DNA from: Bacteroidales bacterium
GTDB taxonomy: Bacteria; Bacteroidota; Bacteroidia; Bacteroidales; VadinHA17
NCBI GenBank assembly: GCA_029932855.1
Contig: JAOZPG010000009.1
Span: 22,864-74,318 of the forward strand
Reading direction: 5' to 3'
Length of the DNA: 51,455 nucleotides
Shown piece after piece: positions 1,388 to 20,546 of the stretch; position 1 is the first letter of the stretch; each line of letters opens with the position of its first letter. The position numbers were made by a program, and so were the translations under genes. Under the pieces are notes generated by a model that was not told where the DNA came from, did not search any database, and saw only the letters and a list, made by a program, of their open reading frames with translations.

Positions 1388-1972
1388 CTAAAAAGGAATA
1401 TGTGCTGAGTAGTGATCGGGATCAACCAATTCGCGATATTTATACACTACCTGCTTGTAATCCTCCCATGTATCTTTTTTTAATTCCGGATTACGCAATA
1501 AAGCAGAAGGATGATAAACGGGCATCAGTAAATACTTATCAAAATGCATCCATTTACCACGCAGCCTGGTAATTTTCAGGTCGGGATTATCAAACAAACG
1601 TTTTAGAGCCGTAGCTCCAAGAGTGATAATGATTTTAGGATCCACCAACTCAATTTGTTTAAGTAAAAAAGGTAAACAGGCTTTCACCTCCTCTTCTGAA
1701 GGGATCCTGTTTGACGGTGGCCTGCATTTTACAATATTGCTGATAAAGATATGCTGCTCCCTGGTAAAGCCACATGCAGAAAATATTTTGTCAAGCAACT
1801 GACCTGACTTACCCACAAAAGGTCTGCCTATCCTGTCTTCATCAGCACCCGGAGCCTCGCCAATTACCATTATTTCAGCATTGAAGTTACCTTCTCCCCA
1901 AATAGCATGATTTCTTGTTTTATATAAGTCACATGCTGTACAGTTTAATATTTCCTTTTTAAGTGTTTCCAT
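1388..1972 (-). CDS. Family 4 uracil-DNA glycosylase (Fe-S)
   Basis: A 194-residue DNA repair enzyme that removes uracil from DNA. The family 4 signature is visible: CTACDLY near the N-terminus supplies two Fe-S ligands and NIVKCRPPSNR and EVKACLPF supply the other two; GEAPGADEDRIGRPFVG is the catalytic motif; VYHPSALLR is the second active-site loop. The length is normal for the family. It follows tyrA by only 6 bases, so it is probably co-transcribed with the aromatic operon, although it has no metabolic link to it. Annotators sometimes call these proteins DNA polymerase-related, but the Cys pattern favours glycosylase. Confidence 0.92.
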   Translation of the reverse strand: METLKKEILNCTACDLYKTRNHAIWGEGNFNAEIMVIGEAPGADEDRIGRPFVGKSGQLLDKIFSACGFTREQHIFISNIVKCRPPSNRIPSEEEVKACLPFLLKQIELVDPKIIITLGATALKRLFDNPDLKITRLRGKWMHFDKYLLMPVYHPSALLRNPELKKDTWEDYKQVVYKYRELVDPDHYSAHIPF

Positions 1973-1978
1973 ATCAGA

Positions 1979-2773
1979 TCATGAGTCCCTGGGTCCTTTA
2001 ACGCCAATGTTTTGTCTAATTTCCGACACATACTCATGTATCCCTCCGGTATCTCTTTCCTGTACAAGCTTAATAAGCCTGTCGAGCTTTATACAGATAT
2101 TTTTAATCTGTTCAAGGGTAAAGGGATTTAATAATATCTCTGAAAGAAGATATTTATCTTCCGACAGTACTCCCCTGGAGGTTTCAAGATGTTTTTTGAA
2201 TGTGGTACCCGGCACTTCTATCTCTTTCATGCATGAGGCAAAAACTATGGATGAAGAAAAAGGTATGGAAAGTGAGTAGGCAATGGTTTCATCATGAAGC
2301 TTAAAGCTATATGTAAAAACCTTTAATTTTAGTGACTTATAAAACTCTTCGAAAAATTTCTTTCCTTCTTCATTTGATTCTTCAATGATCACTGCATTCT
2401 GTCCCTCCAGGTCATTAATATTTCCAAATGTGGGACCGAACATAGGGTGAGTTGAGACAAAGCTCCTCTCCTGCTCTTTATAAAAACTTTCAAGTCCGTT
2501 TTTCACCGATGCAATGTCAGACAGCATGCAGGATTCAGGAATATAATGCAATACCTCTTTAAAGACCTTAACAGTATGTTGCAGGTTTACAGCATTTATG
2601 AGCAAATCCGGCTCAAAATCAGCAAAATCCTCATATTTCAGGAACCTTTGCGAATTAAAAATATATTTAAGCTTAGTCTTGTCGGGGTCATAAATGCCAA
2701 CTTCATGATCAAGACAAAATGATTCTGCCAGCCATGCTCCCATATTTCCCGCTCCCAGTATCAGTATCTTCAC
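1979..2773 (-). CDS. tyrA: Prephenate dehydrogenase
   Basis: A 264-residue NAD(P)-dependent enzyme converting prephenate to 4-hydroxyphenylpyruvate, the tyrosine branch. The N-terminus has a Rossmann GAGNMG motif (about 7-12). STHPMFGPTFGN contains the catalytic His of the TyrA family. The second half is the helical dimerisation domain. No chorismate mutase or ACT domain is present, so mutase activity must come from the DAHP synthase fusion in the same operon and feedback by tyrosine through an ACT domain is not expected. It lies 39 bases after aroC and 6 bases before the glycosylase gene. Confidence 0.9.
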   Translation of the reverse strand: MKILILGAGNMGAWLAESFCLDHEVGIYDPDKTKLKYIFNSQRFLKYEDFADFEPDLLINAVNLQHTVKVFKEVLHYIPESCMLSDIASVKNGLESFYKEQERSFVSTHPMFGPTFGNINDLEGQNAVIIEESNEEGKKFFEEFYKSLKLKVFTYSFKLHDETIAYSLSIPFSSSIVFASCMKEIEVPGTTFKKHLETSRGVLSEDKYLLSEILLNPFTLEQIKNICIKLDRLIKLVQERDTGGIHEYVSEIRQNIGVKGPRDS

Positions 2774-2812: not shown

Positions 2813-3793
2813 CTATCTCAAGGCCTTGCTCATCATTAACATATCAGCCAGGGCAACAGCAGTAACCGATTCAACTATCACCGGTACCCTTAATGCTATA
2901 CACAGGTCATGCCTCCCCTTTATCTCAAGCTCCTCAAGCCGGCCGCTATCCATATTCATGGTTTCCTGCTTTTGGGCTGTGCTGGATGTTGGCTTAACAA
3001 CTAACCTGAATACCAGATCATTACCATTACTTATCCCCCCGTTTATTCCACCTGCAAAATTAGTTGCAGTTTTTCCATCCTTATCAATAATAGCATCATT
3101 ATGCTCACTACCTGTCATCCCTGCTGCCGCGAAGCCCGAACCAAACTCTATCCCCTTTATTGCAGGTATTGAAAATACCAGGTGACTGATCACTGATTCC
3201 AGCGAATTAAAGAAAGGTTCACCAAGTCCCACCGGCATATTATCCACCCTACATTCCACTATACCCCCTATGGAGTCATTATTCTTAATGGCCCGTGATA
3301 TTGCCTTTTCGATATCCTTCTCTCCCCCTGCCTCAACCAGCTCTGCCTTAATATTTATGTCTTTTATTATTTTCTTTGCAATAACACCCGCTGCAACCAG
3401 TCCCAGTGTTATCCTTCCCGAGAAATGACCTCCTCCACGGTAATCGGTATATCCCAGGTATTTTTCTGCGGCTACAAAATCTGCATGTCCCGGCCTGGGT
3501 ATTTTTGTAAACACCGAATAGTCCCCCGATCTGGTATTCTTATTCCTGAACGCCACTGTCAGGGGAGCCCCAGTCGTATATCCATTAAATACACCGCTTA
3601 CAAGTTCAGGTATATCATCTTCTGTCCTGGGGCTGGTTCCCCTGGCCCCGGGCTTCCTGCGATCAAGGTCATCCTGAAAATCTACCGGTTCGAGGGCAAT
3701 CCCAGGGGGACAGGCATCTATCACAACACCTATCATTGCACCATGCGACTCCCCGAATACCGAGATCCTGAATATTTGTCCAAAACTATTCAT
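2813..3793 (-). CDS. aroC: Chorismate synthase, short variant form
   Basis: A 326-residue enzyme making chorismate from EPSP with reduced FMN. GESHG (His17) and RRKPGARG near the N-terminus, RPGHAD (about 100-105), the NFAGGINGGISNG stretch and the KGRHDLC motif are all diagnostic. Two things are unusual. The protein is about 30 residues shorter than E. coli AroC, lacking a central insertion and the C-terminal tail. The usual RGGGRSSARET loop reads RGGGHFSGRIT at 119-129. As I recall, this HFSGR form is typical of clostridial AroC rather than of Bacteroides AroC. It sits between aroA and tyrA in the operon. Confidence 0.93.
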   Translation of the reverse strand: MNSFGQIFRISVFGESHGAMIGVVIDACPPGIALEPVDFQDDLDRRKPGARGTSPRTEDDIPELVSGVFNGYTTGAPLTVAFRNKNTRSGDYSVFTKIPRPGHADFVAAEKYLGYTDYRGGGHFSGRITLGLVAAGVIAKKIIKDINIKAELVEAGGEKDIEKAISRAIKNNDSIGGIVECRVDNMPVGLGEPFFNSLESVISHLVFSIPAIKGIEFGSGFAAAGMTGSEHNDAIIDKDGKTATNFAGGINGGISNGNDLVFRLVVKPTSSTAQKQETMNMDSGRLEELEIKGRHDLCIALRVPVIVESVTAVALADMLMMSKALR

Positions 3794-3827: not shown

Positions 3828-5117
3828 TCACAATCGCTCTACCCTTCCTCCTAATGATTTAATGTCATCAAAGAAAGCAGGGTATGATTTAGCCACACAT
3901 TCAGAAGCATCTATGCTAATTTCACCACTACTGTTAAGCGCAGCAACAGCTGCAGCCATGGCTATCCTGTGATCATTATGAGAATAAACCCTGGCAGCCC
4001 TGATCTCAGACCCCTTTATCTTCATAACATCCTCCCCAAGCTCAATATCCACTCCCATCCTGGCAAACTCTTCCTTCAGGGCAGCCGATCTGTTACTCTC
4101 TTTCACTGCCAGTCGCGACGTACCACTAAGGATACTTATACCCTTACAGTTTGCCGCCAGACTGACAAGTGGTGGTGCCAGGTCGGGACACTCCGAAATA
4201 TCAAATTCGAATGCATTAAGACCGGCTCTTTCAACTATGCATATTTCATCACTCATTTCAACATTTGCACCGGCAAGCTTAAGTGCTTCAATTATCGCCT
4301 TATCTGCCTGACTTGAATCCTGCCTGAGTCCTGTAAGTTCAACCCGTCCTGCAACAGCAGCTGCAACAAGTAAAAGAGCCGCCCCGCTCCAGTCGCCTTC
4401 AATAAAATATTCCCGCGCCTGGTAATGTTGCCTGCCAGGAATAGTAAAGTGCTTATAGTTATCATTTTCGGCATACACTCCAAAATCTCTCATCAGCTCC
4501 AGGCTCAGGTCTATATAAGGCTTGCTTTTCAGCTTATCTACTTCGACCAGAGAATCATTTCCTGTTAAAGGAAGGCTCATAAGCAGCCCTGTAAGAAACT
4601 GTGAACTTAAAGATCCGTCAAGGCTTATCTCCCCCCCCTGCATGGGCCCCTTTACTTCAACCGGAAGAAATCCTTTATTGGTTTTCACCTCAACACCCAT
4701 CTTCTCCAGGGGGCCGGCCAGGTCTCCAAGGGGCCTTTTCATCAGCGAAGCCTTACCACTCAGCCTTGTGTTCTTATCAAACAAGGAAGCTACAGATGAA
4801 AACATCCTTAATGATAAGCCCGACTCTCCACAGTTGAGAGAAAGGATATCCTCTCCACCCGGCCTGTTATGCCCGCCATGCTCCCCCCTTAGTCCTATTC
4901 CTTTTATAAGTATCCTGTCGGAAAGCTTTTCCACCTCTGCCCCGAGCACCTTAATAATATCCAGGGCGGCCAGTGCATCATCACAATAACTGGGATTCAG
5001 TAACACACTGGTCCCTTCTGCTATGGCCCCTGCAGCAACAGCCCTTATCATTACACTCTTTGAAGCCGGTGCTGTAAGCCTGCCTGATATTAAGGAATAA
5101 GATAGTCTGTGGATCAT
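3828..5117 (-). CDS. aroA: 3-phosphoshikimate 1-carboxyvinyltransferase (EPSP synthase)
   Basis: A 429-residue enzyme joining shikimate 3-phosphate and PEP. SKSVMIRAVAA at the N-terminus binds phosphoshikimate. NCGESGLSLRMF is the equivalent of the NAGTAMR loop. SLSSQFLTGLL and the C-terminal DHRIAMAAAVAAL are active-site segments, and the two-domain alpha/beta repeat is complete. The CGESG form of the loop is found in bacterial and archaeal enzymes outside the E. coli-like group. It begins 3 bases after the aroB stop codon and is followed 34 bases later by aroC, so co-translation with aroB is likely. Confidence 0.94.
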   Translation of the reverse strand: MIHRLSYSLISGRLTAPASKSVMIRAVAAGAIAEGTSVLLNPSYCDDALAALDIIKVLGAEVEKLSDRILIKGIGLRGEHGGHNRPGGEDILSLNCGESGLSLRMFSSVASLFDKNTRLSGKASLMKRPLGDLAGPLEKMGVEVKTNKGFLPVEVKGPMQGGEISLDGSLSSQFLTGLLMSLPLTGNDSLVEVDKLKSKPYIDLSLELMRDFGVYAENDNYKHFTIPGRQHYQAREYFIEGDWSGAALLLVAAAVAGRVELTGLRQDSSQADKAIIEALKLAGANVEMSDEICIVERAGLNAFEFDISECPDLAPPLVSLAANCKGISILSGTSRLAVKESNRSAALKEEFARMGVDIELGEDVMKIKGSEIRAARVYSHNDHRIAMAAAVAALNSSGEISIDASECVAKSYPAFFDDIKSLGGRVERL

Positions 5118-5120
5118 TAA

Positions 5121-6212
5121 CTAATTTTGTTTTAAAGTAATAAGTCCCGAAGCTGAAGATACTTCCTTATTGAGCCAGTCCTCAAAAAGCTCAAAAAGCA
5201 TATCTGCCTCAAGCTTTTCTGTAAATGCTTCACCAATATTTTTAAGCATGACAAAATAAAGATATCTGCCGCTGCGCTTTTTATCAGCAGCAAAATGATA
5301 TCTCAGCATTGCAGGATCCAGGCTCACAGCTTTTAGTACACCCGATCCCTTTATTAAGTGAGTAGCTTTTTTCGCTTCCCCATCACTCATATATCCCTTT
5401 CTTGCCGATATATAGATGGCAGCAAGCATTCCATAACTTATGGCTATGCCATGAGGGATCTTTGCAGTGCTCTCTATTGCATGCCCGAAGCTATGTCCGA
5501 AATTCAACAACCTTCGCAGGCCTGTTTCCAGTTCGTCATTTTCAACTATCTGTTTTTTTATTCTCAGTGATCGCACAACAATATCATGTATCTTTCCGGT
5601 ATCTTCCTGACCGGCATTACTATCATCACCGAAATAAGCCAGGATTTCCGGGTCTCCTATAAACCCGTACTTAAGCACTTCACCAAGTCCAGAAAGAAAT
5701 TCCTCCTTGTCCAGGGTCTTCAGCAAATCATGATCACAAATAACAAATTCCGGCTGGTTAAAAACACCAATAATATTCTTTATCCCATTGAAATTCACCC
5801 CGTTCTTACCACCCACGCTGGCATCTACCTGGGCAAGAAGCGTTGTAGCAACAAAAGCATATCTTAATCCTCTCAGGTATGTGGAAGCTGCAAATCCTGC
5901 TATATCACACAATACGCCCCCTCCTATAGCCAGGATGAAAGTATCCCTGTCAACATCCTGTTCGAGAAACTGTTTATATATATGTTCTATTGTTGAAAGG
6001 CTTTTTGTTTGTTCACTGCTCTCAATAATAATAAGCGGGAAGTCAGGGAATATATCAGAATATAATTCATGTACTTCTTTGTCGGCAATGATAAGCAGGT
6101 TTGAACCGGGGATATAAGTATTTATATCCTTCAATGAGCCTCCCACAATTATCCTTGAGTCACGAGCTGCAGCCTTTAAAATAAATTCTATTATGTTAGT
6201 CCCTGTATTCAT
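5121..6212 (-). CDS. aroB: 3-dehydroquinate synthase
   Basis: A 363-residue NAD- and metal-dependent enzyme cyclising DAHP to 3-dehydroquinate. Recognisable elements are the NAD-binding GGGVLCDIAGFAAS segment (about 98-111), DASVGGKNGVN, and the metal-binding NFGHSFGHAIE with HGIAISYGM. The length is typical. The gene starts 53 bases after the DAHP synthase-chorismate mutase gene and runs directly into aroA, consistent with a single transcript from the attenuated promoter near 9700. Confidence 0.94.
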   Translation of the reverse strand: MNTGTNIIEFILKAAARDSRIIVGGSLKDINTYIPGSNLLIIADKEVHELYSDIFPDFPLIIIESSEQTKSLSTIEHIYKQFLEQDVDRDTFILAIGGGVLCDIAGFAASTYLRGLRYAFVATTLLAQVDASVGGKNGVNFNGIKNIIGVFNQPEFVICDHDLLKTLDKEEFLSGLGEVLKYGFIGDPEILAYFGDDSNAGQEDTGKIHDIVVRSLRIKKQIVENDELETGLRRLLNFGHSFGHAIESTAKIPHGIAISYGMLAAIYISARKGYMSDGEAKKATHLIKGSGVLKAVSLDPAMLRYHFAADKKRSGRYLYFVMLKNIGEAFTEKLEADMLFELFEDWLNKEVSSASGLITLKQN

Positions 6213-6265: not shown

Positions 6266-7357
6266 TTACTCTCCCCTGTTCATTATCTTTGTCTGCCTGT
6301 TTATCGACTCCTGGTGTATTGCCTTTAACACAACCGACACAAGTTCATCACTTAGTCCCAGTTTCTTACCCAGCCCGGTACGATCCTTTAAAATATCTGC
6401 CCACCTGTCCGACTGGAATATGGTTACCTTATTCTTAAGTTTATACTCACCTATTTTCTCAACCACCCTCATCCTGGCTTCAAGTGTTCTGATTATCTCC
6501 TCATCCATATGGTCTATCTCTGTCCTGTAATCCTCAAGATCTTTCATTATCTCCAGTCCGTTCACCTGGGGCTTTCTCCAGATCAGTCCATCAAGAATCT
6601 TCTTCAGATCAGTGGGTGTAACCTGCTGGTCTTTATCACTTAGAGCCTGGTCAGGGTTAATATGCGATTCTATAAACAAACCGTCAAAGTTCAGGTCAAG
6701 GGCTTTCTGACACACAGCAGGAATAAGATCCCTCCTGCCTGTTATATGACTTGGATCATTAATCAGGGGAAGGTTGGGAAATCTTCTCTTCAACTCAATG
6801 GGAAGCCCCCACTGCGGTTTATTTCGGTATAGCGACTGTCCATATACAGAAAAGCCCCTGTGAATAGCTACCATCATTTTTAAACCTGCTTTATTAAACC
6901 TTTCCAGGGCTCCTGTCCACAGGTCAATATCCGGATTAACAGGATTCTTTACAAAAACCGGGATATTTTTCCCGGCAAGGTAATCTGCAAGTTCCTGTAC
7001 AGCAAAAGGATTTGCAGTTGTCCTTGCTCCAACCCAGAGAATATCCACATCATGATCAAGAGCCTGTTTGATATGATAAGTATTAGCCACCTCAGTCGCA
7101 ATTATCAGACCTGTCTCTTCCTTAAGCTTCTTTAACCACGGCAATGCAACAGCTCCCAGTCCCTCAAAACCTCCCGGCCTTGTTCTTGGCTTCCATATAC
7201 CTGCCCTGAACACAGATATCCCCATTTCAGCCAGCTGCCTACCTGTCTGCATCACCTGCTCTTCGCTTTCCGCACTGCAGGGTCCGGATATTATGATTGG
7301 TAATTCCAGTTCCTTCCCGTTTATTACTACCGGTTCGATATTCAATTTTGCCTCCAT
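6266..7357 (-). CDS. Bifunctional DAHP synthase / chorismate mutase
   Basis: A 363-residue fusion of the first pathway enzyme (PEP plus erythrose 4-phosphate to DAHP) with the branch-point chorismate mutase. Residues 1 to about 265 are a KdsA/AroF-type barrel, with IISGPCSAES, RAGIWKPRTRPGGFEG, and NDPSHITGRR. Residues about 268-363 are an all-helical AroQ-type mutase (EIDHMDEEIIRTLEARM, KIGEYK, and a C-terminal IHQESINRQ). This fusion order is characteristic of Bacteroidota. The reading frame is open upstream to 7648, but that extension overlaps the aminotransferase gene and has no family similarity; ATG 7357 gives the standard N-terminus 10 bases after the preceding stop. The mutase domain may mediate feedback by prephenate, as known for similar fusions. 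Confidence 0.93.
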   Translation of the reverse strand: MEAKLNIEPVVINGKELELPIIISGPCSAESEEQVMQTGRQLAEMGISVFRAGIWKPRTRPGGFEGLGAVALPWLKKLKEETGLIIATEVANTYHIKQALDHDVDILWVGARTTANPFAVQELADYLAGKNIPVFVKNPVNPDIDLWTGALERFNKAGLKMMVAIHRGFSVYGQSLYRNKPQWGLPIELKRRFPNLPLINDPSHITGRRDLIPAVCQKALDLNFDGLFIESHINPDQALSDKDQQVTPTDLKKILDGLIWRKPQVNGLEIMKDLEDYRTEIDHMDEEIIRTLEARMRVVEKIGEYKLKNKVTIFQSDRWADILKDRTGLGKKLGLSDELVSVVLKAIHQESINRQTKIMNRGE

Positions 7358-7367
7358 TTTCTTATTC

Positions 7368-8528
7368 TTATAATATATTAATAATCCTGTTTTTCGCCTC
7401 CATAAGCACATCCTTATCACTGCATATTGATAATCGCAGGTATCTCTGTCCCCTGCTTCCGAATATCCCGCCGGGAGTAATAAACACAGCTGCTTTTTCC
7501 AGTATTCTGTCTGACAGGTCATATGCATTATTCTCACTATCTGGTATCCTGGCCCAGACAAACAATCCTGCCTGTTCACTGCTGTATGTACAGCCAAATA
7601 CATCAAAAATCCCACGGGCAACAATACTCCTGCTCCTGTATTCCTCATTTAATTCCTCATACCATGAATCAGGCAGTGTAAGTGCCTCGGTTGCAGCCTC
7701 CTGCAATACCCGGAACATGCCCGATTGAATATTTGATACTATCTTCATCACCTCGGTAAGGTATTCTTCATTCCCACTCAGCATGCCCAGTCGCCATCCA
7801 GCCATATTATGTGACTTGCTTAAGGAATTAAGCTCCAGTGCCACATCTTTTGCCCCGTCAACAGAGAGAATACTCAGGGGCTCATCATTAAGAATAAAGC
7901 TGTAAGGATTATCCAGGCATAAGAGTATCTCGTTGCGCTTTGCAAAAGCAACAAGATCCTGGTACAATTTTCTTGTTGGAATGGCGCCGCTGGGCATATG
8001 AGGATAGTTTACCCACATTATCTTCACCCCCGACAGGTCGTGCTGCTCAAGTTCCAACAGATTGGGAAACCATTCAGTATCTTCACTGAGCTCGTATGGA
8101 ATAACATCAGCGCCAAGCATCCTTGTTACCGAAGCATAGGCAGGATATCCGGGATTGGGAACAAGCGCCTGGTCGCCCGGGTTTAAAAATGCCATGGAGA
8201 TATGGAATATCCCTTCTTTTGAGCCCATAAGAGGCAATATTTCGGTAGCGGGGTCAAGCTCCACATGATAAAAACGCTTATACCAGCCGGATATTGACTT
8301 CCTGAAGGCCGGCGTACCCCTGTAGCTCTGATAACCATGAAAACCCGGTTCTGCCAGTTTTTCCATGGCAGCATCAAGAACCTGCTGTGAGGGCGGCATA
8401 TCGGGATTGCCTATGCCAAGGTTAATAATATCCCTTCCTGCTGCCCTCATTGCCTCTATCTCCTTCAGCTTCCCTGAGAAGTAATATTCCTTTATATGGC
8501 CGGTACGTTCGGCAGCACTTATTATCAT
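7368..8528 (-). CDS. PLP-dependent class I aminotransferase, probably aromatic
   Basis: A 386-residue fold-type I aminotransferase. The PLP lysine is K238 in LSKSHNMAGWRLG, with NYPHMPSGA and CLDNPYSF as the substrate and cofactor loops and YQSYRGTPAFR near the N-terminus. The family resembles LL-diaminopimelate and aspartate/methionine aminotransferases. Its place between pheA and DAHP synthase, with a 4-base ATGA overlap with pheA, argues that its main role is to aminate phenylpyruvate and hydroxyphenylpyruvate, or prephenate to arogenate. Sequence alone does not fix the substrate. Confidence 0.85.
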   Translation of the reverse strand: MIISAAERTGHIKEYYFSGKLKEIEAMRAAGRDIINLGIGNPDMPPSQQVLDAAMEKLAEPGFHGYQSYRGTPAFRKSISGWYKRFYHVELDPATEILPLMGSKEGIFHISMAFLNPGDQALVPNPGYPAYASVTRMLGADVIPYELSEDTEWFPNLLELEQHDLSGVKIMWVNYPHMPSGAIPTRKLYQDLVAFAKRNEILLCLDNPYSFILNDEPLSILSVDGAKDVALELNSLSKSHNMAGWRLGMLSGNEEYLTEVMKIVSNIQSGMFRVLQEAATEALTLPDSWYEELNEEYRSRSIVARGIFDVFGCTYSSEQAGLFVWARIPDSENNAYDLSDRILEKAAVFITPGGIFGSRGQRYLRLSICSDKDVLMEAKNRIINIL

Positions 8529-9379
8529 AATACCTTCCTCCCTTTCTTATATACACCGAGTATGCTTATTTCCCCCGTAAAAGGCCTGATGGCATCTATT
8601 GCCTGGCCATATAATTCACAATCGTCATATACCATATCGATATAAAAATGATAATCCCATTCCTTACCTATTATAGGCATAGACTGGATCTTAGTAAGGT
8701 TCATATCGTAATATGAAAGTATGGAAAGAATTTTTGACAGGCTGCCTATCTTATGTGAGAGCGAAAAGACCAGTGAGGATTTATTATTCTCACAATCAGG
8801 CTCTATGGTACCATTATCAGATAGTATTAGGAAACGGGTATAATTCACCTTGTTTGTTTCAATTCCTTCTGCAAGGACCTCAAGATCATACTTGGTAGCT
8901 GCCAGATCGCTGGCAATTGCACCTGTCCCTTTCAATTTTTTATCCCTTATTTCTTTGGCACTCAGAGCTGTATCGACACTTTCTATAAGCTTTATTCCCG
9001 GCTGGCTCTCAAAGAACACCTGGCACTGAAGTATGGCCATGGGATGTGAATACACTTCCTTAATATCATTTATCTCCTGTCCGGGCAGGGCAAGGAGATT
9101 TTGCCTGATCCTCAGGAATAACTCTCCAACTATTTTTTTTCCCGATTCCATAATAAGGGTATAGTTAGGAAGAATACTACCTGCCACCGAGTTCTCAATA
9201 GCCATAATCCCATAATCCGACTCCCTCTCCTTCAAGGTCTTAAACACATCCTTGAATGTTTCCCTTGGCACGATCTCTATATTGTCTGTCTCGAAATACT
9301 CACGTGCAGCAATCTCATGAAATGCACCGTAACCACCCTGTATAGCTATTCTTAATTCTCTTTTTGCTTTGTTATTCAT
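8525..9379 (-). CDS. pheA: Prephenate dehydratase
   Basis: A 284-residue enzyme converting prephenate to phenylpyruvate. The catalytic domain (about 9-187) has IQGGYGAFHE, AIENSVAGSI, the YSHPMAILQC segment and the essential VNYTRF motif (Thr181). An ACT domain follows (about 203-280). Its phenylalanine-binding motifs are altered: IQSMP at 231-235 replaces the usual ESRP and GSL replaces GAL, so allosteric control may differ from that of E. coli PheA. It is the first structural gene of the aromatic operon, lies about 180 bases downstream of the attenuator terminator, and overlaps the aminotransferase start by 4 bases. Confidence 0.93.
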   Translation of the reverse strand: MNNKAKRELRIAIQGGYGAFHEIAAREYFETDNIEIVPRETFKDVFKTLKERESDYGIMAIENSVAGSILPNYTLIMESGKKIVGELFLRIRQNLLALPGQEINDIKEVYSHPMAILQCQVFFESQPGIKLIESVDTALSAKEIRDKKLKGTGAIASDLAATKYDLEVLAEGIETNKVNYTRFLILSDNGTIEPDCENNKSSLVFSLSHKIGSLSKILSILSYYDMNLTKIQSMPIIGKEWDYHFYIDMVYDDCELYGQAIDAIRPFTGEISILGVYKKGRKVL

Positions 9380-9424
9380 CTATTTAAAATTGTATAATCA
9401 TCTAATAATATACTAATCTGAAAT

Positions 9425-9508
9425 TTACAACTCTCTGTAAGCGCTCCTTACTCCCACTCTCTCATAAATTTTAATCATTCCCTTATGTAAACCGGGCTTG
9501 CGAGCCAA
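9425..9508 (-). other. Short open frame between attenuator and pheA
   Basis: A 27-codon frame with a TTG start, ending in TAA, lies in otherwise AT-rich leader DNA. Its predicted product is basic and contains KPGLHKGMIKIYERVGVR. It has a more protein-like composition and higher GC than the flanking sequence. It could be a translated small ORF, a remnant of a lost gene, or a copy of a dispersed extragenic repeat. ATG starts exist at 9519 (12 codons, another frame) and within this frame at the internal Met. Support is only compositional. Confidence 0.25.
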
Positions 9509-9561
9509 TTCATTTTGTTATTAAAATACTTTGCTGTCTTTTCAGCTAAATATGTATATAT

Positions 9562-9588
9562 AAAAAAAGCCCCACTGTTAATGGGACT
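9562..9588 (-). terminator. Intrinsic terminator of the Phe/Tyr attenuator
   Basis: On the minus strand AGTCCCA (9588-9582) pairs with TGGGGCT (9574-9568) in a 7-bp stem with one T.G wobble and a 7-base loop, followed at once by seven Ts (9568-9562). It stands about 30 bases after the leader-peptide stop and about 180 bases before pheA, so it would stop transcription before the operon. Its 5' arm overlaps an alternative pairing partner (see antiterminator). Confidence 0.8.
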
Positions 9589-9616
9589 GGCATCTATATA
9601 TTTACAAAGCAATCCC
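9583..9616 (-). promoter_or_regulatory. Antiterminator hairpin of the Phe/Tyr attenuator
   Basis: GGGATTG (9616-9610) can pair over all seven positions, with one T.G wobble, with CAGTCCC (9589-9583). Six of those downstream bases also form the 5' arm of the terminator, so the two hairpins exclude each other. GGGATTG begins 2 bases after the leader-peptide TGA. A ribosome at that stop would cover it and favour termination; a ribosome stalled on the earlier Phe/Tyr codons would leave it free and favour read-through. Confidence 0.7.
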
Positions 9617-9618
9617 TG

Positions 9619-9672
9619 TCAGCTTATAAAACCAAAATAAAAAAAGTTGTAAAAAAAATAGCTGGCAATCAT
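9619..9672 (-). CDS. Phe/Tyr leader peptide of the aromatic operon attenuator
   Basis: A 17-codon ORF reads MIASYFFYNFFYFGFIS and then TGA. It has six Phe and three Tyr codons, nine of seventeen, with YFFY and FFYF runs. It begins 24 bases after the -7 promoter box and ends just before the antiterminator and terminator segments, immediately upstream of the phenylalanine/tyrosine operon. This is the arrangement of a classic amino-acid leader peptide whose translation measures charged tRNA-Phe and tRNA-Tyr. The peptide itself is presumably without function. The inference rests on composition, position and the two exclusive hairpins. Confidence 0.82.
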   Translation of the reverse strand: MIASYFFYNFFYFGFIS

Positions 9673-9695
9673 TGCAATTCCTGTTAATTATTATG

Positions 9696-9725
9696 CAAAC
9701 CTACATATTAAAATATTATAATCAA
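9696..9725 (-). promoter_or_regulatory. Bacteroidota-type promoter of the aromatic operon
   Basis: On the minus strand TTG (9725-9723) is followed after 19 bases by TAGGTTTG (9703-9696). This matches the Bacteroidota -33 TTG and -7 TAnnTTTG consensus with normal spacing. The predicted start of transcription, a few bases downstream, gives a short untranslated segment before the leader ATG at 9672. Confidence 0.65.
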
Positions 9726-9807: not shown

Positions 9808-9815
9808 TAACTTTG
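9808..9815 (+). promoter_or_regulatory. Probable -7 box of nth
   Basis: TAACTTTG fits the Bacteroidota TAnnTTTG -7 consensus exactly, about 20 bases before the chosen nth ATG. No good -33 TTG is visible at the right distance. The box overlaps the alternative TTG codon at 9813, which makes that codon an unlikely translation start. Confidence 0.45.
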
Positions 9816-9836
9816 AAGCCAGATTATTTTTCTAAT

Positions 9837-10484
9837 ATGACACAGAAGGAGCTCTATAAAAATATTATTAACTGGTTTGAGAAAAATGTACCCTTTGCTG
9901 AAACAGAGCTGGATTATAAGGATGCATTCAGCCTGCTTGTGGCTGTTATCCTCTCGGCACAGTGTACTGATAAAAGGGTAAACCTTATAACTCCGTTACT
10001 GCTTGCAGAATATCCCGATGCTGCTTCCATGGCCGGGGCATCCCAGGAGGAGATCTTTGAATTTATTAAAAGCTGTTCTTATCCGAATAACAAGGCAAAG
10101 CATATAAAAAGGATGTCACAAATGCTTATTGAGGAATTTAATGCTATTGTTCCCGATGATATGGATAAATTACAGAGACTTCCGGGTGTAGGTCGTAAGA
10201 CTGCAAATGTAATTGCATCGGTAGTATATAACAAACCGGCTATGGCTGTTGACACTCATGTATTCAGGGTATCGAAACGATTGGGCCTCAGCAGGGGAGC
10301 AAGAACCCCGCTGGAAACAGAGAAACAACTGGTTAAACATATTCCAGAGTCACTTATTCCAAAAGCACATCACTGGCTGATACTGCATGGCAGGTATATA
10401 TGCCAGGCCAGGAAACCCCGTTGCCAGGAATGTGGCTTAAGAGAATATTGCAGCTACTACAAAAAGCAAGAAAAACATCCTTGA
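9837..10484 (+). CDS. nth: Endonuclease III (DNA glycosylase/AP lyase)
   Basis: A 215-residue base-excision repair enzyme acting on oxidised pyrimidines. The helix-hairpin-helix LPGVGRKTAN contains the catalytic Lys, the VDTHVFRVSKR segment the catalytic Asp, and the C-terminal C-x6-C-x2-C-x5-C motif the 4Fe-4S cluster. The frame is open from a TTG at 9813, but that codon lies within a promoter-like -7 box, and ATG 9837 gives the usual family N-terminus (MTQKELYKNIINWF). It is transcribed divergently from the aromatic operon and is followed 65 bases later by the NifS-SelD fusion. Confidence 0.94.
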   Translation: MTQKELYKNIINWFEKNVPFAETELDYKDAFSLLVAVILSAQCTDKRVNLITPLLLAEYPDAASMAGASQEEIFEFIKSCSYPNNKAKHIKRMSQMLIEEFNAIVPDDMDKLQRLPGVGRKTANVIASVVYNKPAMAVDTHVFRVSKRLGLSRGARTPLETEKQLVKHIPESLIPKAHHWLILHGRYICQARKPRCQECGLREYCSYYKKQEKHP

Positions 10485-10549: not shown

Positions 10550-12760
10550 ATGAACAGGATATATCTTGATTTTAATGCAACCACGCCCCTGCACCCTGAA
10601 GTTGCCGGGGCAATGAGACCTTTCCTGGAGGAATATTTCGGAAACCCTTCAAGCACACACTGGTTTGGAACACAAGCCAGGCTCAGGGTAGAAAAGGCAC
10701 GCAGACAGATTGCTTCTTTTCTTAATTGCGCCCCTGATGAACTGGTTTTTACAAGCGGGGGTACAGAATCCAATAATACCGCCCTTAAAGGAATTGCCTA
10801 CGCCCATAAAGACCGGGGTAAACATATTATTACTTCGCAAATAGAACATCCGGCAATACTTGAGGTATGTAAATTTCTTGAAAAGGACGGTTTTGAGATC
10901 AGCTATATAGCTGTTGACGAATCAGGAATGCTCAGGCTTGATGAGCTTAGGGCTGCGGTAAGGGATGATAGCATTTTAATAAGTATTATGCATGCCAATA
11001 ACGAGGTAGGTACAATTCAGCCCATCAAGGAGATATCTGAAATAGCAAGAAAAAATAATATTATCTTTCATAGCGATGCAGCCCAGTCAGCCGGAAAGAT
11101 AGCACTTGACGTAAATGAGCTGGGAGTAGATCTTCTGTCTGTTGCAGGCCACAAATTATACGGGCCCAAAGGCATAGGTGTATTATATATCAGGAGGGGC
11201 ACAAAAATTGAGAAGTTGATGCACGGGGCAGATCATGAAAGGAACATGAGGGCCGGAACGGAAAACGTGATCGAGATAATAGGACTTGGCAAGGCATGTG
11301 AACTTGCAACAAATGAATCAGGCGACAGAGCAACCCATATGAAAGAGATGAGGGACATGCTGCATAAGGAACTCGAAGAAAAGCTTCAAGACATATATCT
11401 GCTCGGACACCCTGAAAAAAGACTCCCTAACACACTTAGTATTGGCTTTGCAGGCATTGAAGCAAATATCATTCTTGAAAAACTACAGAATGATGTTGCT
11501 GTATCTGCAGGAGCTGCATGCCATGCGGATGAAGTTGAAGTCTCCCATGTTCTTGAAGCAATGAATATTCCCGGGAATAAGGCAATGGGTGCTATCAGGT
11601 TCTCAACAGGATTCACAAATACAGCTGAAGAAATATTAACAGCAGCAAATAAAATAATAAAGATCGTTAAAGACATAAAGCCAGAAGGAAGTATGAATAC
11701 AGATGAACCAAGATATAACAAAGAGATCAAACTAACACAATATGCATCGGGTATGGGCTGTGCCTGCAAGATAAAACCACAAACACTTGAAAAGGTTCTT
11801 AAGAACATCCCGGTATTCAATGAACCGGCTGTACTGGTTGACCTGAAAACAAGTGATGATGCAAGCATATACAAACTGGATGATGAAAAGGCAATTGTTG
11901 AAAGCCTTGATTTTTTCGCACCCATAGTGGATGACCCATATCACTTCGGACAGATTGCTGCAGCCAATGCTCTCAGCGATATATATGCTATGGGAGCCCG
12001 TCCTCTGTATGCCCTCAATATTGTAGGTTTCCCGGTAACACGATTGCCTATAGAAGCACTGGAGGACATATTAAAGGGCGCAAATAATAAATGTGCCGAA
12101 GCGGGCATCGGAATTCTTGGGGGGCATAGTATAGATGACCCTGAACCCAAGTTTGGACTCGTGGTGTCGGGTATAGTGCACCCCGATAAGATATTAAAGA
12201 ATGCAGGGGCAAAACCAGGAGATGTATTGATTCTTACCAAGCCCATAGGAACAGGCATTATGGCTACAGCCATGAAAAAAGGTGTATGCAGTGAAAAAGA
12301 AATATTAAAGACCGTTGGCATAATGGCAACATTAAATAAATATGCTGCAGAAATTATGTTAAACTATCCTGTTTCAGCCTGCACAGATGTAACAGGTTTC
12401 GGCTTGCTGGGACATATGGGTGAGATGCTTAAGGCAAGTCAGGTAAATGCAAGAATAAATGTTTGTGACATACCTTTTATTTCTGAAGCCGTCGAGTATG
12501 TGGCAAGCGGACTGGTTCCGGGGGGAACAAAAAATAACCTTGAGTATATTAAAAGCAGGGTAAAGTTTGAAACAAATATTTCAGAGGAGGATAAGTTACT
12601 GCTTGCCGATGCACAAACATCCGGAGGCTTGCTTATCAGCATAAATAAAGAGTACTCAGAAAAGATGCTTTCTGAGCTGAATAAGAACAACTTAACAAAA
12701 GAATCAGCAGTTATAGGAAGTATAGAAAATAAAGGTACAGGAATGATTTATGTGTCATAA
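10550..12760 (+). CDS. Fused cysteine desulfurase (NifS-like) and selenide, water dikinase (SelD)
   Basis: A 736-residue fusion. Residues 1 to about 378 are a NifS/selenocysteine lyase-type PLP enzyme with PLP-Lys202 in SVAGHKLYGPKG, TSGGTESNN, and active-site Cys324 in SAGAACHAD. Residues about 382-736 are SelD: the LTQYASGMGCACKI segment carries Cys404 and Lys407, equivalent to Cys17 and Lys20 of E. coli SelD, and it continues with a complete ATP-binding AIRS-type fold. The desulfurase could pass selenium directly to the kinase, which makes selenophosphate for selenocysteine tRNA, 2-selenouridine or a selenium cofactor. Met382 (11693) follows GAAGGAAGT, so SelD might also be translated separately. 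The active-site residue is Cys, not Sec. No other selenium gene lies in the window. Confidence 0.9.
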   Translation: MNRIYLDFNATTPLHPEVAGAMRPFLEEYFGNPSSTHWFGTQARLRVEKARRQIASFLNCAPDELVFTSGGTESNNTALKGIAYAHKDRGKHIITSQIEHPAILEVCKFLEKDGFEISYIAVDESGMLRLDELRAAVRDDSILISIMHANNEVGTIQPIKEISEIARKNNIIFHSDAAQSAGKIALDVNELGVDLLSVAGHKLYGPKGIGVLYIRRGTKIEKLMHGADHERNMRAGTENVIEIIGLGKACELATNESGDRATHMKEMRDMLHKELEEKLQDIYLLGHPEKRLPNTLSIGFAGIEANIILEKLQNDVAVSAGAACHADEVEVSHVLEAMNIPGNKAMGAIRFSTGFTNTAEEILTAANKIIKIVKDIKPEGSMNTDEPRYNKEIKLTQYASGMGCACKIKPQTLEKVLKNIPVFNEPAVLVDLKTSDDASIYKLDDEKAIVESLDFFAPIVDDPYHFGQIAAANALSDIYAMGARPLYALNIVGFPVTRLPIEALEDILKGANNKCAEAGIGILGGHSIDDPEPKFGLVVSGIVHPDKILKNAGAKPGDVLILTKPIGTGIMATAMKKGVCSEKEILKTVGIMATLNKYAAEIMLNYPVSACTDVTGFGLLGHMGEMLKASQVNARINVCDIPFISEAVEYVASGLVPGGTKNNLEYIKSRVKFETNISEEDKLLLADAQTSGGLLISINKEYSEKMLSELNKNNLTKESAVIGSIENKGTGMIYVS

Positions 12761-16101: not shown

Positions 16102-18714
16102 CTACTCAATATTTTTCTTTGCATTTTTATCGGTGATAACATGAACAAAACCGGAATAATGTCTTGGTTCAATACCTGTTAGTCTTCTTTCATATACATC
16201 ACACATATAATAATATACTCCGGGACTTACAAGTTTTCTTGTTTTAATATTATAACCATCCCAGTTTATCGCAGGATCCTCTGTCTTAAAAACCAGTACT
16301 CCGCTGCGACTGTATATCTTAATATCTATCTTTTCAACAAAAGGATTTGTACGTGCAATGAGGCGATCGTTTTTATCATCCCCGTTTGGAGTAAAAACAT
16401 TTGGTATCTCGTAATAAGAGCAACTGTCAACACAAACAATATTGGAATAAGAACTCTCATTAGCATTTGAATCTATTGCAGTAACGGCATAACATCCTGC
16501 AAGAGACTCGTTAAGATAATGCCTGAATGTTGTATCCGAAGCAGATATTCCCGATCCAATAAGGATCAGGTCTGCATCCAGCTCATCTATAAAGTAAATC
16601 TTATACGATTCAACATCATCTGCACAGTAATTATTAGGGTTGGTCCATACAAGTGAATTATACAGGCTGTCGCATATTGAAGCAACCTGCAGAACAGGCG
16701 GACAGGGTGGTTCATTGTCCTCAGGTATCCCACAGGCTTCATGGGAATAATTTACCAGGCTGGCAGGAAGGTCGTGCCTGTGATACGAACCCGTGGTTTT
16801 TACTATATAACAGTATGTTTTACCATTTATAAGTCCGCTGTCAACAAAAACAGTATCCACACTTACTCCAACTGAATCAAAGCCGTCCATTTCATTCTTC
16901 CTGTAAAATACATATTCGGTATTTACCCAGGGAACATTCTTCCTGCATCTTATCTCAAGCTTATTATCAGCCGGCACAAAAGTCAGAAAAACAGTTGAAG
17001 CACTGCCGGGAGGAGCAACCAGCTCCCACTGCCCTGAATTATCATTATAAAGTTCAACCTTGTAAGTATATGCCAGGTCAAGAGTATTTATAAGAGTATC
17101 TACAAAACTGGTATCAAGCAAATCCGGACTGTTATAACTATGTATCATGCTAAAAGATGTCCCCCAAACACCTTCAGCCCTGTATATCCTGTATTGATAA
17201 GGACCATTGGCCGGGATTGTATCCAGGTCCCTGGGTTTCATCCAGGCCAGATACACTGATCCGTTTACTGCGTCTGTATTACGAACGCTTACATTTGTTA
17301 TCAGGGGAACTCCCTGTATCAGAGAACTGCATTCTTCATCAGAGGGGATACTCTCACAGTCTCCCTCATATAGTGCAACTACCATATAACAATAATCTAT
17401 ACCCTGTACCAGACCACTTCCTCCCCCATTATCAATGAAAGTGGTATCATTATAATCAGCCGTCTCCCCAATACTCTCATATCCGGTAAATGAAGGCACC
17501 CCGTTCTGGCAGGAATCCGGAACATAAGCTATATAACCGTTCCTGCGATATATCCTGTAAGCCGTAACATTACTGCATTCTCCCGGAGACCAGGAAAGAT
17601 TTATGGAAGTACCGCCGGGTGCAAGTTCCAAATTTTCGGGAGGAGGGCCAAGCACCTTGATATTAAAGTTGCTTATTTCCACGAGTGAAAGATCGGAATT
17701 ATCATCTTCAGCCTTTATTACTACCTGGTATGCCTGCTGTCTTACATGATTACAGTTTGTTTTCCATTTCATTAGCGATACGGTCTTTCCAGGTACAGAA
17801 GATATTGTATTAAATTCCGCGGGACTGTCATCCAGGAAAAATATTCCACCGGTAGGATAATGAAAAATTGAATCTCCTTCTGAATCATAACTTGTTATGG
17901 TCATCTCAATTGAATCACCTGCAACAACACAATAATTACTTAATGAATCTGTTTCAGGAGGATTATTATCGGTATTATAAACATTTATCTGCATGTCCCT
18001 CACCAGGTTACCTATCTTAACCCCCTTGCGCCACTCCTCAATGTTCATGGCAACATTATAAAAGCCACTATCAATAGGAGAGTCCCATACCAGATCGCCT
18101 GTCCTGGCATCAACATATAATGTATCAGTTGCTACAGGATAACTGTAATTCTCTATTGGCAATCCATCCTCCCTGGTACATACAGTAAGGCTGTAGGAGA
18201 GACTGTCTCCGTCTTCATCAAAAGCCGCCGGGTTATGAACAAACTTCCTGCCAATGGCAGCCTTGTCAAAAGGGGGATTCAGTAATAGAGGAGTATTGTT
18301 CTGCCCTATCTCAGGATTTATCATCAGAGTAGTTTGTATTGAAAAAACAACATTTACTGAATTTGGAATATTCACCACTCCGAAATTCCTGTTAGGGTCC
18401 TGAACAACTATTTTGTAAACACCGGGTCCCGGGAAAGTGTGTATTGCCACATACTTATTCTTCCTGTAATAGTTAGGTAATTCAATATGATTCACTCTCG
18501 GGGCAATCGAGCTTGTTCCATCGCCCCAGTCAACAGGCAGTTCATCCCTGTCAGCAATACTTAAAGTATAAGTATATGTCCATATAGTTATTTCAAAACT
18601 AAGAGCATCAATTTGCCGATAGGTTATTTCTCCTGCCCTGTTATGTGTGGCATAGGAAGCCTGAAGAAACAGGAAGGCAAGCAAGACAGCAATTATATTT
18701 TTCTTAACACTCAT
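16102..18714 (-). CDS. Large surface protein with type IX secretion C-terminal domain
   Basis: An 870-residue secreted protein. Residues 1-22 are a signal peptide, and the mature chain begins THNRAGEITY, a start shared by many Bacteroidota surface proteins. The first half contains beta-rich PKD/cadherin-like segments (DEDGDSLSY). Residues about 365-760 are a series of fibronectin type III-like units with recurring YRIYR and YCYMV strands. The C-terminal 80 residues (EIPNVFTPNGDDKNDRL to the end) are the gliding-motility-associated domain that directs export through the type IX system (type B sorting domain). It is likely a surface adhesin. It is first in a two-gene unit with the TPR protein. 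Confidence 0.85.
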   Translation of the reverse strand: MSVKKNIIAVLLAFLFLQASYATHNRAGEITYRQIDALSFEITIWTYTYTLSIADRDELPVDWGDGTSSIAPRVNHIELPNYYRKNKYVAIHTFPGPGVYKIVVQDPNRNFGVVNIPNSVNVVFSIQTTLMINPEIGQNNTPLLLNPPFDKAAIGRKFVHNPAAFDEDGDSLSYSLTVCTREDGLPIENYSYPVATDTLYVDARTGDLVWDSPIDSGFYNVAMNIEEWRKGVKIGNLVRDMQINVYNTDNNPPETDSLSNYCVVAGDSIEMTITSYDSEGDSIFHYPTGGIFFLDDSPAEFNTISSVPGKTVSLMKWKTNCNHVRQQAYQVVIKAEDDNSDLSLVEISNFNIKVLGPPPENLELAPGGTSINLSWSPGECSNVTAYRIYRRNGYIAYVPDSCQNGVPSFTGYESIGETADYNDTTFIDNGGGSGLVQGIDYCYMVVALYEGDCESIPSDEECSSLIQGVPLITNVSVRNTDAVNGSVYLAWMKPRDLDTIPANGPYQYRIYRAEGVWGTSFSMIHSYNSPDLLDTSFVDTLINTLDLAYTYKVELYNDNSGQWELVAPPGSASTVFLTFVPADNKLEIRCRKNVPWVNTEYVFYRKNEMDGFDSVGVSVDTVFVDSGLINGKTYCYIVKTTGSYHRHDLPASLVNYSHEACGIPEDNEPPCPPVLQVASICDSLYNSLVWTNPNNYCADDVESYKIYFIDELDADLILIGSGISASDTTFRHYLNESLAGCYAVTAIDSNANESSYSNIVCVDSCSYYEIPNVFTPNGDDKNDRLIARTNPFVEKIDIKIYSRSGVLVFKTEDPAINWDGYNIKTRKLVSPGVYYYMCDVYERRLTGIEPRHYSGFVHVITDKNAKKNIE

Positions 18715-19880: not shown

Positions 19881-20004
19881 TTTCAGCCTTGAGTCCTCTT
19901 TATTCAATCTGTTCGGTTCGTTCATCCCCGGTTTTTCCTTTCAGCCTTAAGTTCAATTCGTTCAGTTTGTTCAATTCGTTAGATTCGTTCATCCCCGGTT
20001 TTTC
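19881..20004. repeat. Degenerate repeat tract with a 21-base direct repeat, overlapping the aroQ 3' end
   Basis: Twenty-one identical bases at 19917-19937 and 19984-20004 begin TTCGTTCATCCCCGG and lie 67 bases apart. The second copy contains the last codons and stop of aroQ. A second motif, TTTCAGCCTTRAG, occurs at 19881 and 19939. The rest consists of TTCA/TTCG-type hexamer repeats such as TTCAATTCGTTCAGTTTG. The tract occupies the gap between two convergent genes. Confidence 0.65.
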
Positions 20005-20435
20005 TCATCATCTTTAATAATCACCCTCAGTGCCTCAATGGCAAGCCTGTAAGAATCCAGACCAAGACCCATAATGCTTCCCCGGCATGCCTGTGCAATA
20101 AAAGAAATATGACGGTATTCTTCCCTTGCAAGAATATTTGATATATGTACCTCCACGGCAGGGGTTTTAATAGCCGAAAGTGCATCTGCTATTGAAACAG
20201 ATGTATGAGTGTATCCACCGGCATTTATAACAATACCGTCATAATCAAAACCTGTCTCCTGTATCTTGTCAATTATAAGGCCTTCAACATTAGTCTGAAA
20301 GTAATCTATCTGAATATCCTTAAAATGCTCTTTTAAAACAGGAAGGTAATCATCGAATGATGCTTCTCCGTAATGACCCGGTTCTCTTTTTCCTGTAAGA
20401 TTAAGGTTTGGTCCGTTTATTATCTGAATTCTCAT
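19989..20435 (-). CDS. aroQ: Type II 3-dehydroquinate dehydratase
   Basis: A 148-residue enzyme dehydrating 3-dehydroquinate to 3-dehydroshikimate, step three of the shikimate pathway. INGPNLNLTGKREPGHYG has the catalytic Arg and Tyr, NAGGYTHTSVSI and EVHISN the substrate site with the catalytic His. The frame extends upstream to 20495, but ATG 20435 gives the family N-terminus. The last residues (EKNRG) are encoded within a direct repeat. The gene lies outside the aromatic operon and so is not under its attenuator. It is divergent from xerD. Confidence 0.94.
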   Translation of the reverse strand: MRIQIINGPNLNLTGKREPGHYGEASFDDYLPVLKEHFKDIQIDYFQTNVEGLIIDKIQETGFDYDGIVINAGGYTHTSVSIADALSAIKTPAVEVHISNILAREEYRHISFIAQACRGSIMGLGLDSYRLAIEALRVIIKDDEKNRG

Positions 20436-20546
20436 ATACTGTATTTTTAATATTATTATTTCCTGTCTCAGGACATTATTAAACAACAATAACAAAATTA
20501 AATGATAATTTTATGATTCATAGTATATTATTACTTGTTTTAAAAC

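Follow-up and report, generated by a model that had tools for sequence, protein, structure and literature searches.

We identified upstream of pheA, in the genome of a member of Bacteroidales, a leader that is very probably a classical ribosome-mediated transcription attenuator, of the kind known from the pheA, trp and his operons of E. coli. Among 144 non-redundant loci, mostly from the class Bacteroidia, 119 carry a unit of the same composition before pheA. Judged from their sequences, these Phe/Tyr leaders are in all likelihood real and functional. The window, as used below, is the whole stretch of 51,455 nucleotides that was analysed, taken from an assembly of 44 contigs. A sequence-only reading of this DNA had proposed a leader-peptide attenuator of the Phe/Tyr operon, and the proposal is sustained by what we observed in the anatomy of the leader, its conservation, the match of its codons to the pathway, the covariation of its pairing arms and the spacing between arm and codons.

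All the parts named in that reading, the promoter, the 17-codon ORF, GGGATTG, CAGTCCC and the T run, are present in the window (Table 1). The short ORF is rich in codons for the products of the operon that it precedes and runs on the minus strand from ATG (9672-9670) to TGA (9621-9619), with AGGA at a Shine-Dalgarno-like position (9682-9679) ahead of it. The GGGATTG arm is located 2 nt past the leader TGA and 11 nt past the last Phe codon, and pairs fully with CAGTCCC; since AGTCCC doubles as the 5' arm of the terminator, antiterminator and terminator are mutually exclusive, six bases being common to both as had been pointed out. The intrinsic terminator predicted between the ORF and the first gene was rightly described as a hairpin plus seven Ts, only that the hairpin scan counts 9 pairs around a 3-nt loop instead of 7 bp. 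Terminator matches alone are not above chance (7 in the stretch against 7.4 expected), the sigma-70 promoter scan of the stretch, which does not cover the TAnnTTTG type, gave 26 against 24.3 expected, and the whole-leader fold is mildly special against shuffles (z -2.1); it is the combination of features and its conservation, not any feature alone, that sets the leader beyond chance. When the window is aligned with six relatives, no change is seen in the promoter TTTG, ATG, GGGAT, GTCCC, GGG or the T run. No second aromatic unit was seen in 9380-9561 of the window. The gap between terminator end and PheA match is 189 nt in the window against a median of 29 nt, the third largest among 119.

Table 1. 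Features of the window referred to in the text.
Feature	Position	Strand	Remarks
Promoter	9696..9725	minus	TTG 9725-9723, N19, TAGGTTTG 9703-9696; matches the TAnnTTTG -7 box
Leader peptide ORF MIASYFFYNFFYFGFIS (putative)	9619..9672	minus	17 codons: 6 Phe, 3 Tyr
Antiterminator 5' arm GGGATTG (segment 2)	9610..9616	minus	from sequence
CAGTCCC (segment 3)	9583..9589	minus	pairs with GGGATTG
Intrinsic terminator (segments 3:4)	9562..9588	minus	predicted; hairpin 9588-9568 plus T7 9568-9562
pheA, prephenate dehydratase	8525..9379	minus	first structural gene; Pfam PF00800
Class I/II aminotransferase	7368..8528	minus	Pfam PF00155
DAHP synthase fused to chorismate mutase	6266..7354	minus	Pfam PF00793 and PF01817
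aroB, 3-dehydroquinate synthase	5121..6212	minus	Pfam PF01761
aroA, EPSP synthase	3828..5117	minus	Pfam PF00275
aroC, chorismate synthase	2813..3793	minus	Pfam PF01264
tyrA, prephenate dehydrogenase	1979..2773	minus	Pfam PF02153, 35.2 bits against a cut-off of 26.5
Uracil-DNA-glycosylase family gene	1388..1972	minus	Pfam PF03167
aroQ, type II dehydroquinase	19989..20495	minus	in the window, outside the operon
nth-like gene	9813..10484	plus	neighbour on the far side of the leader

The operon had been called complete, and its seven Phe/Tyr genes are indeed in place, except that aroQ is absent from it and lies elsewhere in the window. The start of the DAHP synthase/chorismate mutase gene at 7354 was chosen by us, a longer ORF being open in frame from 7648, and the uracil-DNA-glycosylase family gene, 6 nt past tyrA, is possibly the last gene of the transcript. 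Because the nth-like gene sits on the opposite strand, the terminator serves no upstream gene of its own strand. No match to HisG or TrpE was found in the genome of this organism (96% complete), which points to possible auxotrophy for His and Trp or to sequence missing from the assembly; on the same ground, Phe and Tyr may be the main products for which the operon's shikimate genes are used. Elsewhere in the window, a 736-residue fusion (10550-12760, plus strand) comprises, by Pfam, a class V aminotransferase and an AIR-synthase-type domain pair, presumably resembling the cysteine desulfurase-SelD fusion, and 16102-18714 of the minus strand encodes a protein of 870 residues that carries a CHU_C type IX secretion signal domain.

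For the survey of conservation, PheA loci came from three sources: 60 related genomes, 41 of which gave a match; 392 genomes of the phylum, with matches in 339, of which the better-scoring part was taken; and contigs of named genomes, which added 65 loci. Of the 204 PheA loci in total, with the strand taken from the search rows and in agreement with tblastn for 125/204, three with less than 200 nt upstream (L019, L077 and L078) were left out, and after removal of 12 near-duplicates from the remaining 201, the family, order, class and named groups made up the 144 non-redundant loci, including L066 (titled Caldithrix) and L095, both negative. To count as a Phe/Tyr unit, an ORF of 8-45 codons had to contain five or more Phe/Tyr in 8 codons and to be followed by a terminator within 110 nt, so that the terminator is demanded by the definition. 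Against the 119 positive loci, dinucleotide shuffles of the 144 upstream regions yielded 0.1 on average and never more than 1 in 20 rounds, the reverse strand of the same regions gave 0/144, and the runner-up amino-acid pair, Phe/Ser, which has Phe in common with Phe/Tyr, scored 66. By group, among all 201 loci, units were found in 25/29 of the family, 14/16 of the order, 40/48 of the class, 5/45 of other classes and 51/63 of the named loci, and by genus in 13/14 of the family, 14/15 of the order, 34/37 of the class and 5/41 of other classes of the phylum; the 5/45 for the outer classes is if anything high because these loci are the better-scoring rows. Both Phe and Tyr codons are present in 128/132 leaders.

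Nine loci (L004, L100, L103, L129, L137, L153, L162, L163 and L164) carry by eye an aromatic leader with a nearby hairpin below the unit thresholds and were kept in the counts as negatives, and seven MAGs titled Prevotellaceae (L072, L074, L076, L079, L081, L084 and L085) are also unit-negative. The units outside the class Bacteroidia (L099, L116, L119, L123 and L167) precede PheA proteins 44-49% identical to that of the window, yet L114, L165 and L166, also outside the class and with similarly close PheA (46-50%), are without a unit. A joint transfer of operon and leader to the outer classes is possible.

The codon content of the leaders follows the pathway of the downstream genes. Among relatives of the same family and order, His units precede hisG in 16/17 loci, against Phe/Tyr units in 1/17, and leaders with at least two Trp in 8 codons precede trpE in 14/17 loci (at least three Trp in 12/17), against Phe/Tyr units in 2/17, one weak second match (L238) among the 17 trpE loci being scored as a miss. 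His units are found before pheA in 0/144 and before trpE in 0/17 loci, and Trp units (at least two) before pheA in 0/144 and before hisG in 0/17. The class-wide scan covered 19/21 hisG loci, 14/16 newly fetched ilvD loci and 16/30 trpE-family loci, the rest of the last being weak or partial matches, and revealed His units in 15/19 hisG and Trp units in 13/16 trpE loci. Ile/Leu/Val units precede ilvD in 18 of the 21 loci scanned (of 22, own genome included) among the relatives, against a background at the same threshold of 12/144 before pheA, 2/17 before hisG and 0/17 before trpE; the class-wide number is only 2/14, and therefore an Ile/Leu/Val leader at ilvD is not class-wide. In the genome of the window, an Ile/Leu-rich leader MFRNYILLISVLALILNIKIKSRR and a terminator precede ilvD (locus L245). 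This leader is likely a second attenuator of the genome, its own 2:3 pairing being weak (p 0.30).

As far as sequences can tell, no other single argument speaks as strongly as this match of codons to pathway for the importance of the codons and not of the peptide. A functional small aromatic-rich (membrane) peptide encoded by the mini-ORF would agree with the presence of such a peptide in many genomes, but the peptide differs among loci in residue order and in length, and what stays constant is its Phe/Tyr content together with the spacing and pairing of the arms. The counterparts before hisG and trpE are His- and Trp-rich instead, so that we hold this explanation to be very improbable. A role in trans has been claimed for the leader peptide peTrpL of Sinorhizobium (PMC7298713, in the passages available), and by analogy an added trans role of the Phe/Tyr leader peptide is conceivable.

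The antiterminator arm (arm 2) was searched for between the end of the aromatic run and the terminator in the 132 Phe/Tyr units of the 119 loci. The complement of the terminator 5' arm beats shuffled spacers at p<0.05 in 87/132 units (median p 0.02), with p>=0.05 individually in 45/132; an earlier search, which extended only 9 nt into the ORF so that arms within it escaped, had given 55/132 at p<0.05. Because the choice of the best helix favours complementarity, a bias that also affects the z of 2:3 pairing in the shuffle test (100/115 below -2), the main evidence for pairing is the swap test, in which matched arms 2 and 3 scored 18.37 against 13.81 for swapped arms (sd 0.23; 2000 permutations), as expected for an antiterminator that excludes the terminator and is kept by compensatory change. 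In the same test, his leaders scored 15.7 against 13.2 and ilv leaders 18.9 against 14.1, with 0/1000 permutations reaching the observed value in each case, single units being at p<0.05 in 13/18 ilv but only 4/16 his leaders. The trp leaders gave no 2:3 covariation (13.1 against 12.9; single p<0.05 in 2/15).

Of the 132 Phe/Tyr units, 115 have a strong helix. Their arm 2 begins at a distance of 11.6 +/- 3.6 nt from the last aromatic codon and of -9.7 +/- 11.0 nt from the stop, and in 103/115 it is located 7-15 nt past that last codon. With the end of the dense run as reference, the distance is 13.5 +/- 4.5 nt against 19.8 +/- 12.8 nt in shuffled spacers, 24% of which fall at 7-15 nt. The corresponding arm-2 distance is 18.1 +/- 2.3 nt for strong ilv units (15 units) and 13.9 +/- 5.4 nt for strong his units (11 units). 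These sequences indicate that what is conserved is the distance between the last control codon and arm 2, and not that between the stop codon and arm 2. Such a ruler is to be expected where a waiting ribosome has to keep just clear of the arm, an argument that builds on the footprint of the ribosome on mRNA. By spacing alone, arm 2 is placed so as to be free under a stalled ribosome and covered by an advancing one. The conserved distance is not set from the terminating ribosome, which had been suggested as the blocker.

From these features we infer the following course, from transcript start and translation of the ORF to stalling, termination and the response to Phe and to Tyr. As judged from the promoter box, RNA polymerase would start about 18-20 nt before the 17-codon ORF. 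When charged tRNA-Phe, and probably also tRNA-Tyr, is plentiful, the ribosome would pass the aromatic codons and cover GGGATTG, leaving AGTCCC free for formation of the terminator, and transcription would end before pheA. At low charging of the aromatic tRNAs, the ribosome would wait at a Phe or Tyr codon with GGGATTG exposed, which could then pair with the emerging CAGTCCC and block the terminator, so that read-through would allow transcription of pheA-aminotransferase-DAHPS/CM-aroB-aroA-aroC-tyrA. The response to Tyr is uncertain because, in the passages available, the AroR leader of Corynebacterium glutamicum responded to Phe and not to Tyr (PMC11802643).

A riboswitch, a T-box or a protein-binding leader could drive the terminator with the ORF being incidental, and a terminator with an alternative fold would suit such ligand-binding switches as well; it is nevertheless hardly to be expected here, as Rfam at gathering score gave no match in the window or in 20 phe, his, trp and ilv loci, no ligand model predicts codon content that tracks the pathway, and the leader transcript as inferred is only about 130 nt long, of which 54 are ORF. 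Translational attenuation, with the hairpins upstream of the gene masking the ribosome-binding site of pheA and no transcription termination, deserves little credence in view of the T run directly behind the hairpin, and occlusion of one site misfits a hairpin-to-PheA gap of 189 nt in the window and varying distances in relatives (IQR 19-53 nt).

For the ribosome-mediated attenuator, folding gives predicted energies of -6.6 kcal/mol for the 7-bp antiterminator helix of the window alone, -11.3 with its inner stem, and -10.4 for the terminator, which is similar in strength to the antiterminator with inner stem. Antitermination must be kinetic because the terminator is the predicted minimum (-13.8) of the fully transcribed stalled state. 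The earlier claim that the leader has no 1:2 hairpin and is thus of simpler design than E. coli pheA finds no support, as pheL has the same geometry and a 1:2-type fold is predicted in the window (-6.9 to -11.3 kcal/mol), pairing 5/7 bases of the antiterminator arm with a probability above 0.8. This fold is no better than shuffles (z +0.9); the 1:2 folds of 115 relatives have a mean z of -0.53, with z below -2 in 8/115, by a test that misses most E. coli leaders as well, and of the single pairing tests for 1:2, 10/87 had p<0.05, with swapping showing a slight advantage of matched arms (14.18 against 12.95, sd 0.25). The E. coli controls in the same 1:2 test scored -0.7 (pheL), +1.4 (trpL), -0.4 (hisL), -0.3 (leuL), -1.4 (thrL) and -2.0 (ilvL), the last two reaching -3.0 and -2.5 with 12 nt more. 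Since pheL, trpL, hisL and leuL are also near zero, the test cannot separate the designs, and the simpler design was dropped. The arm-2 distance by the same measure is 8 nt in pheL, 14 in trpL and 7 in thrL of E. coli, and in 3/6 E. coli leaders (hisL, leuL and ilvL) no sensible arm emerged from the simple arm search.

The sequence TAnnTTTG, a -7 box according to the passages available of PMC9723704, is located within 70 nt upstream of 75/132 leader units, against a null mean of 7.8 and a maximum of 13. AGG or GGA occupies the Shine-Dalgarno position in only 15/132 leaders. In 13/119 loci (L015, L016, L037, L041-L044, L058, L062, L065, L102, L125 and L126), two units follow one another, each ending in a terminator of its own. 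The strict TAnnTTTG lies no more than 60 nt from the first unit in 6/13 and from the second in 0/13, an arrangement that suggests two attenuators for the same signal on one transcript. Several of these loci are close relatives by peptide (L015/L058; L016/L037/L041/L044; L042/L043), and the 13 tandem loci are therefore not 13 independent events. The mgtCBR leader of Salmonella also carries two leader ORFs in series (PMC3641672, as far as available), yet these sense different signals, unlike the two Phe/Tyr units of the tandem loci.

The closest known system, pheL-pheA of E. coli, has likewise a Phe-rich leader ORF, a terminator and an antiterminator, and its arm GGGAGGC, which pairs with GCCTCCC, starts 2 nt past the stop and 8 past the last Phe codon, against 2 and 11 for GGGATTG, the partner of CAGTCCC, in the window. 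Unlike pheL, the window leader mixes in Tyr codons, and unlike that of E. coli the operon also spans DAHP synthase, aroB, aroA, aroC and tyrA; in E. coli K-12, the genes that come after pheA, tyrA and aroF, are encoded on the opposite strand. A Phe-Tyr-Phe leader, aroR, precedes the aroF DAHP synthase operon of C. glutamicum (PMC11802643, passages available), alike in placing a Phe/Tyr leader peptide ahead of DAHP synthase but in another phylum. Within the phylum of the window leader, the transcriptome of Flavobacterium psychrophilum gave clues of leader-peptide attenuation before amino-acid operons, with 5' elements at pheA and hisG, that of pheA being structured and conserved in Flavobacteriaceae (PMC9723704); section 19 and the other passages available of that paper give neither sequence nor codon content nor mechanism of the pheA element, but this is an earlier mention in Bacteroidota, where the sequence-only reading had known of no description. 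The map of Bacteroides thetaiotaomicron includes short, leader-peptide-like ORFs in long 5' UTRs (PMC7366714, in part), and the passages available of PMC4833913, PMC1262725 and PMC8305728 hold no description of a Bacteroidota attenuator. Among the matches listed in a search that took in mostly papers outside subscription, there was no other detailed account of a Bacteroidota Phe/Tyr leader. The abstract of Vitreschak 2004 reportedly mentions Bacteroidetes/Chlorobi.

The mechanism as such is known, and the main news is its class-wide extent, the mixed Phe/Tyr codons and the tandem units being also of interest. With pheA leaders in 34/37 of the class-level genera sampled and the counts given above for hisG and trpE, attenuators look like a standard layer of control in Bacteroidia. 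On balance, we consider it probable that leader-peptide attenuation is the ancestral default for aromatic and His biosynthesis in this class, with mixed Phe/Tyr leaders over the shikimate, Phe and Tyr steps, some lineages stacking two attenuators for the same signal, and the tested leaders being absent from Rfam. If true, this would mean tight coupling of ribosome and polymerase in bacteria whose leaders are mostly without a Shine-Dalgarno-like site. The leader ORFs would represent an unannotated class of small ORFs, and the leaders would offer a form of gene regulation that can be tested in bacteria common in soil, sea and gut, as well as natural reporters of tRNA charging and of translation-transcription coupling.
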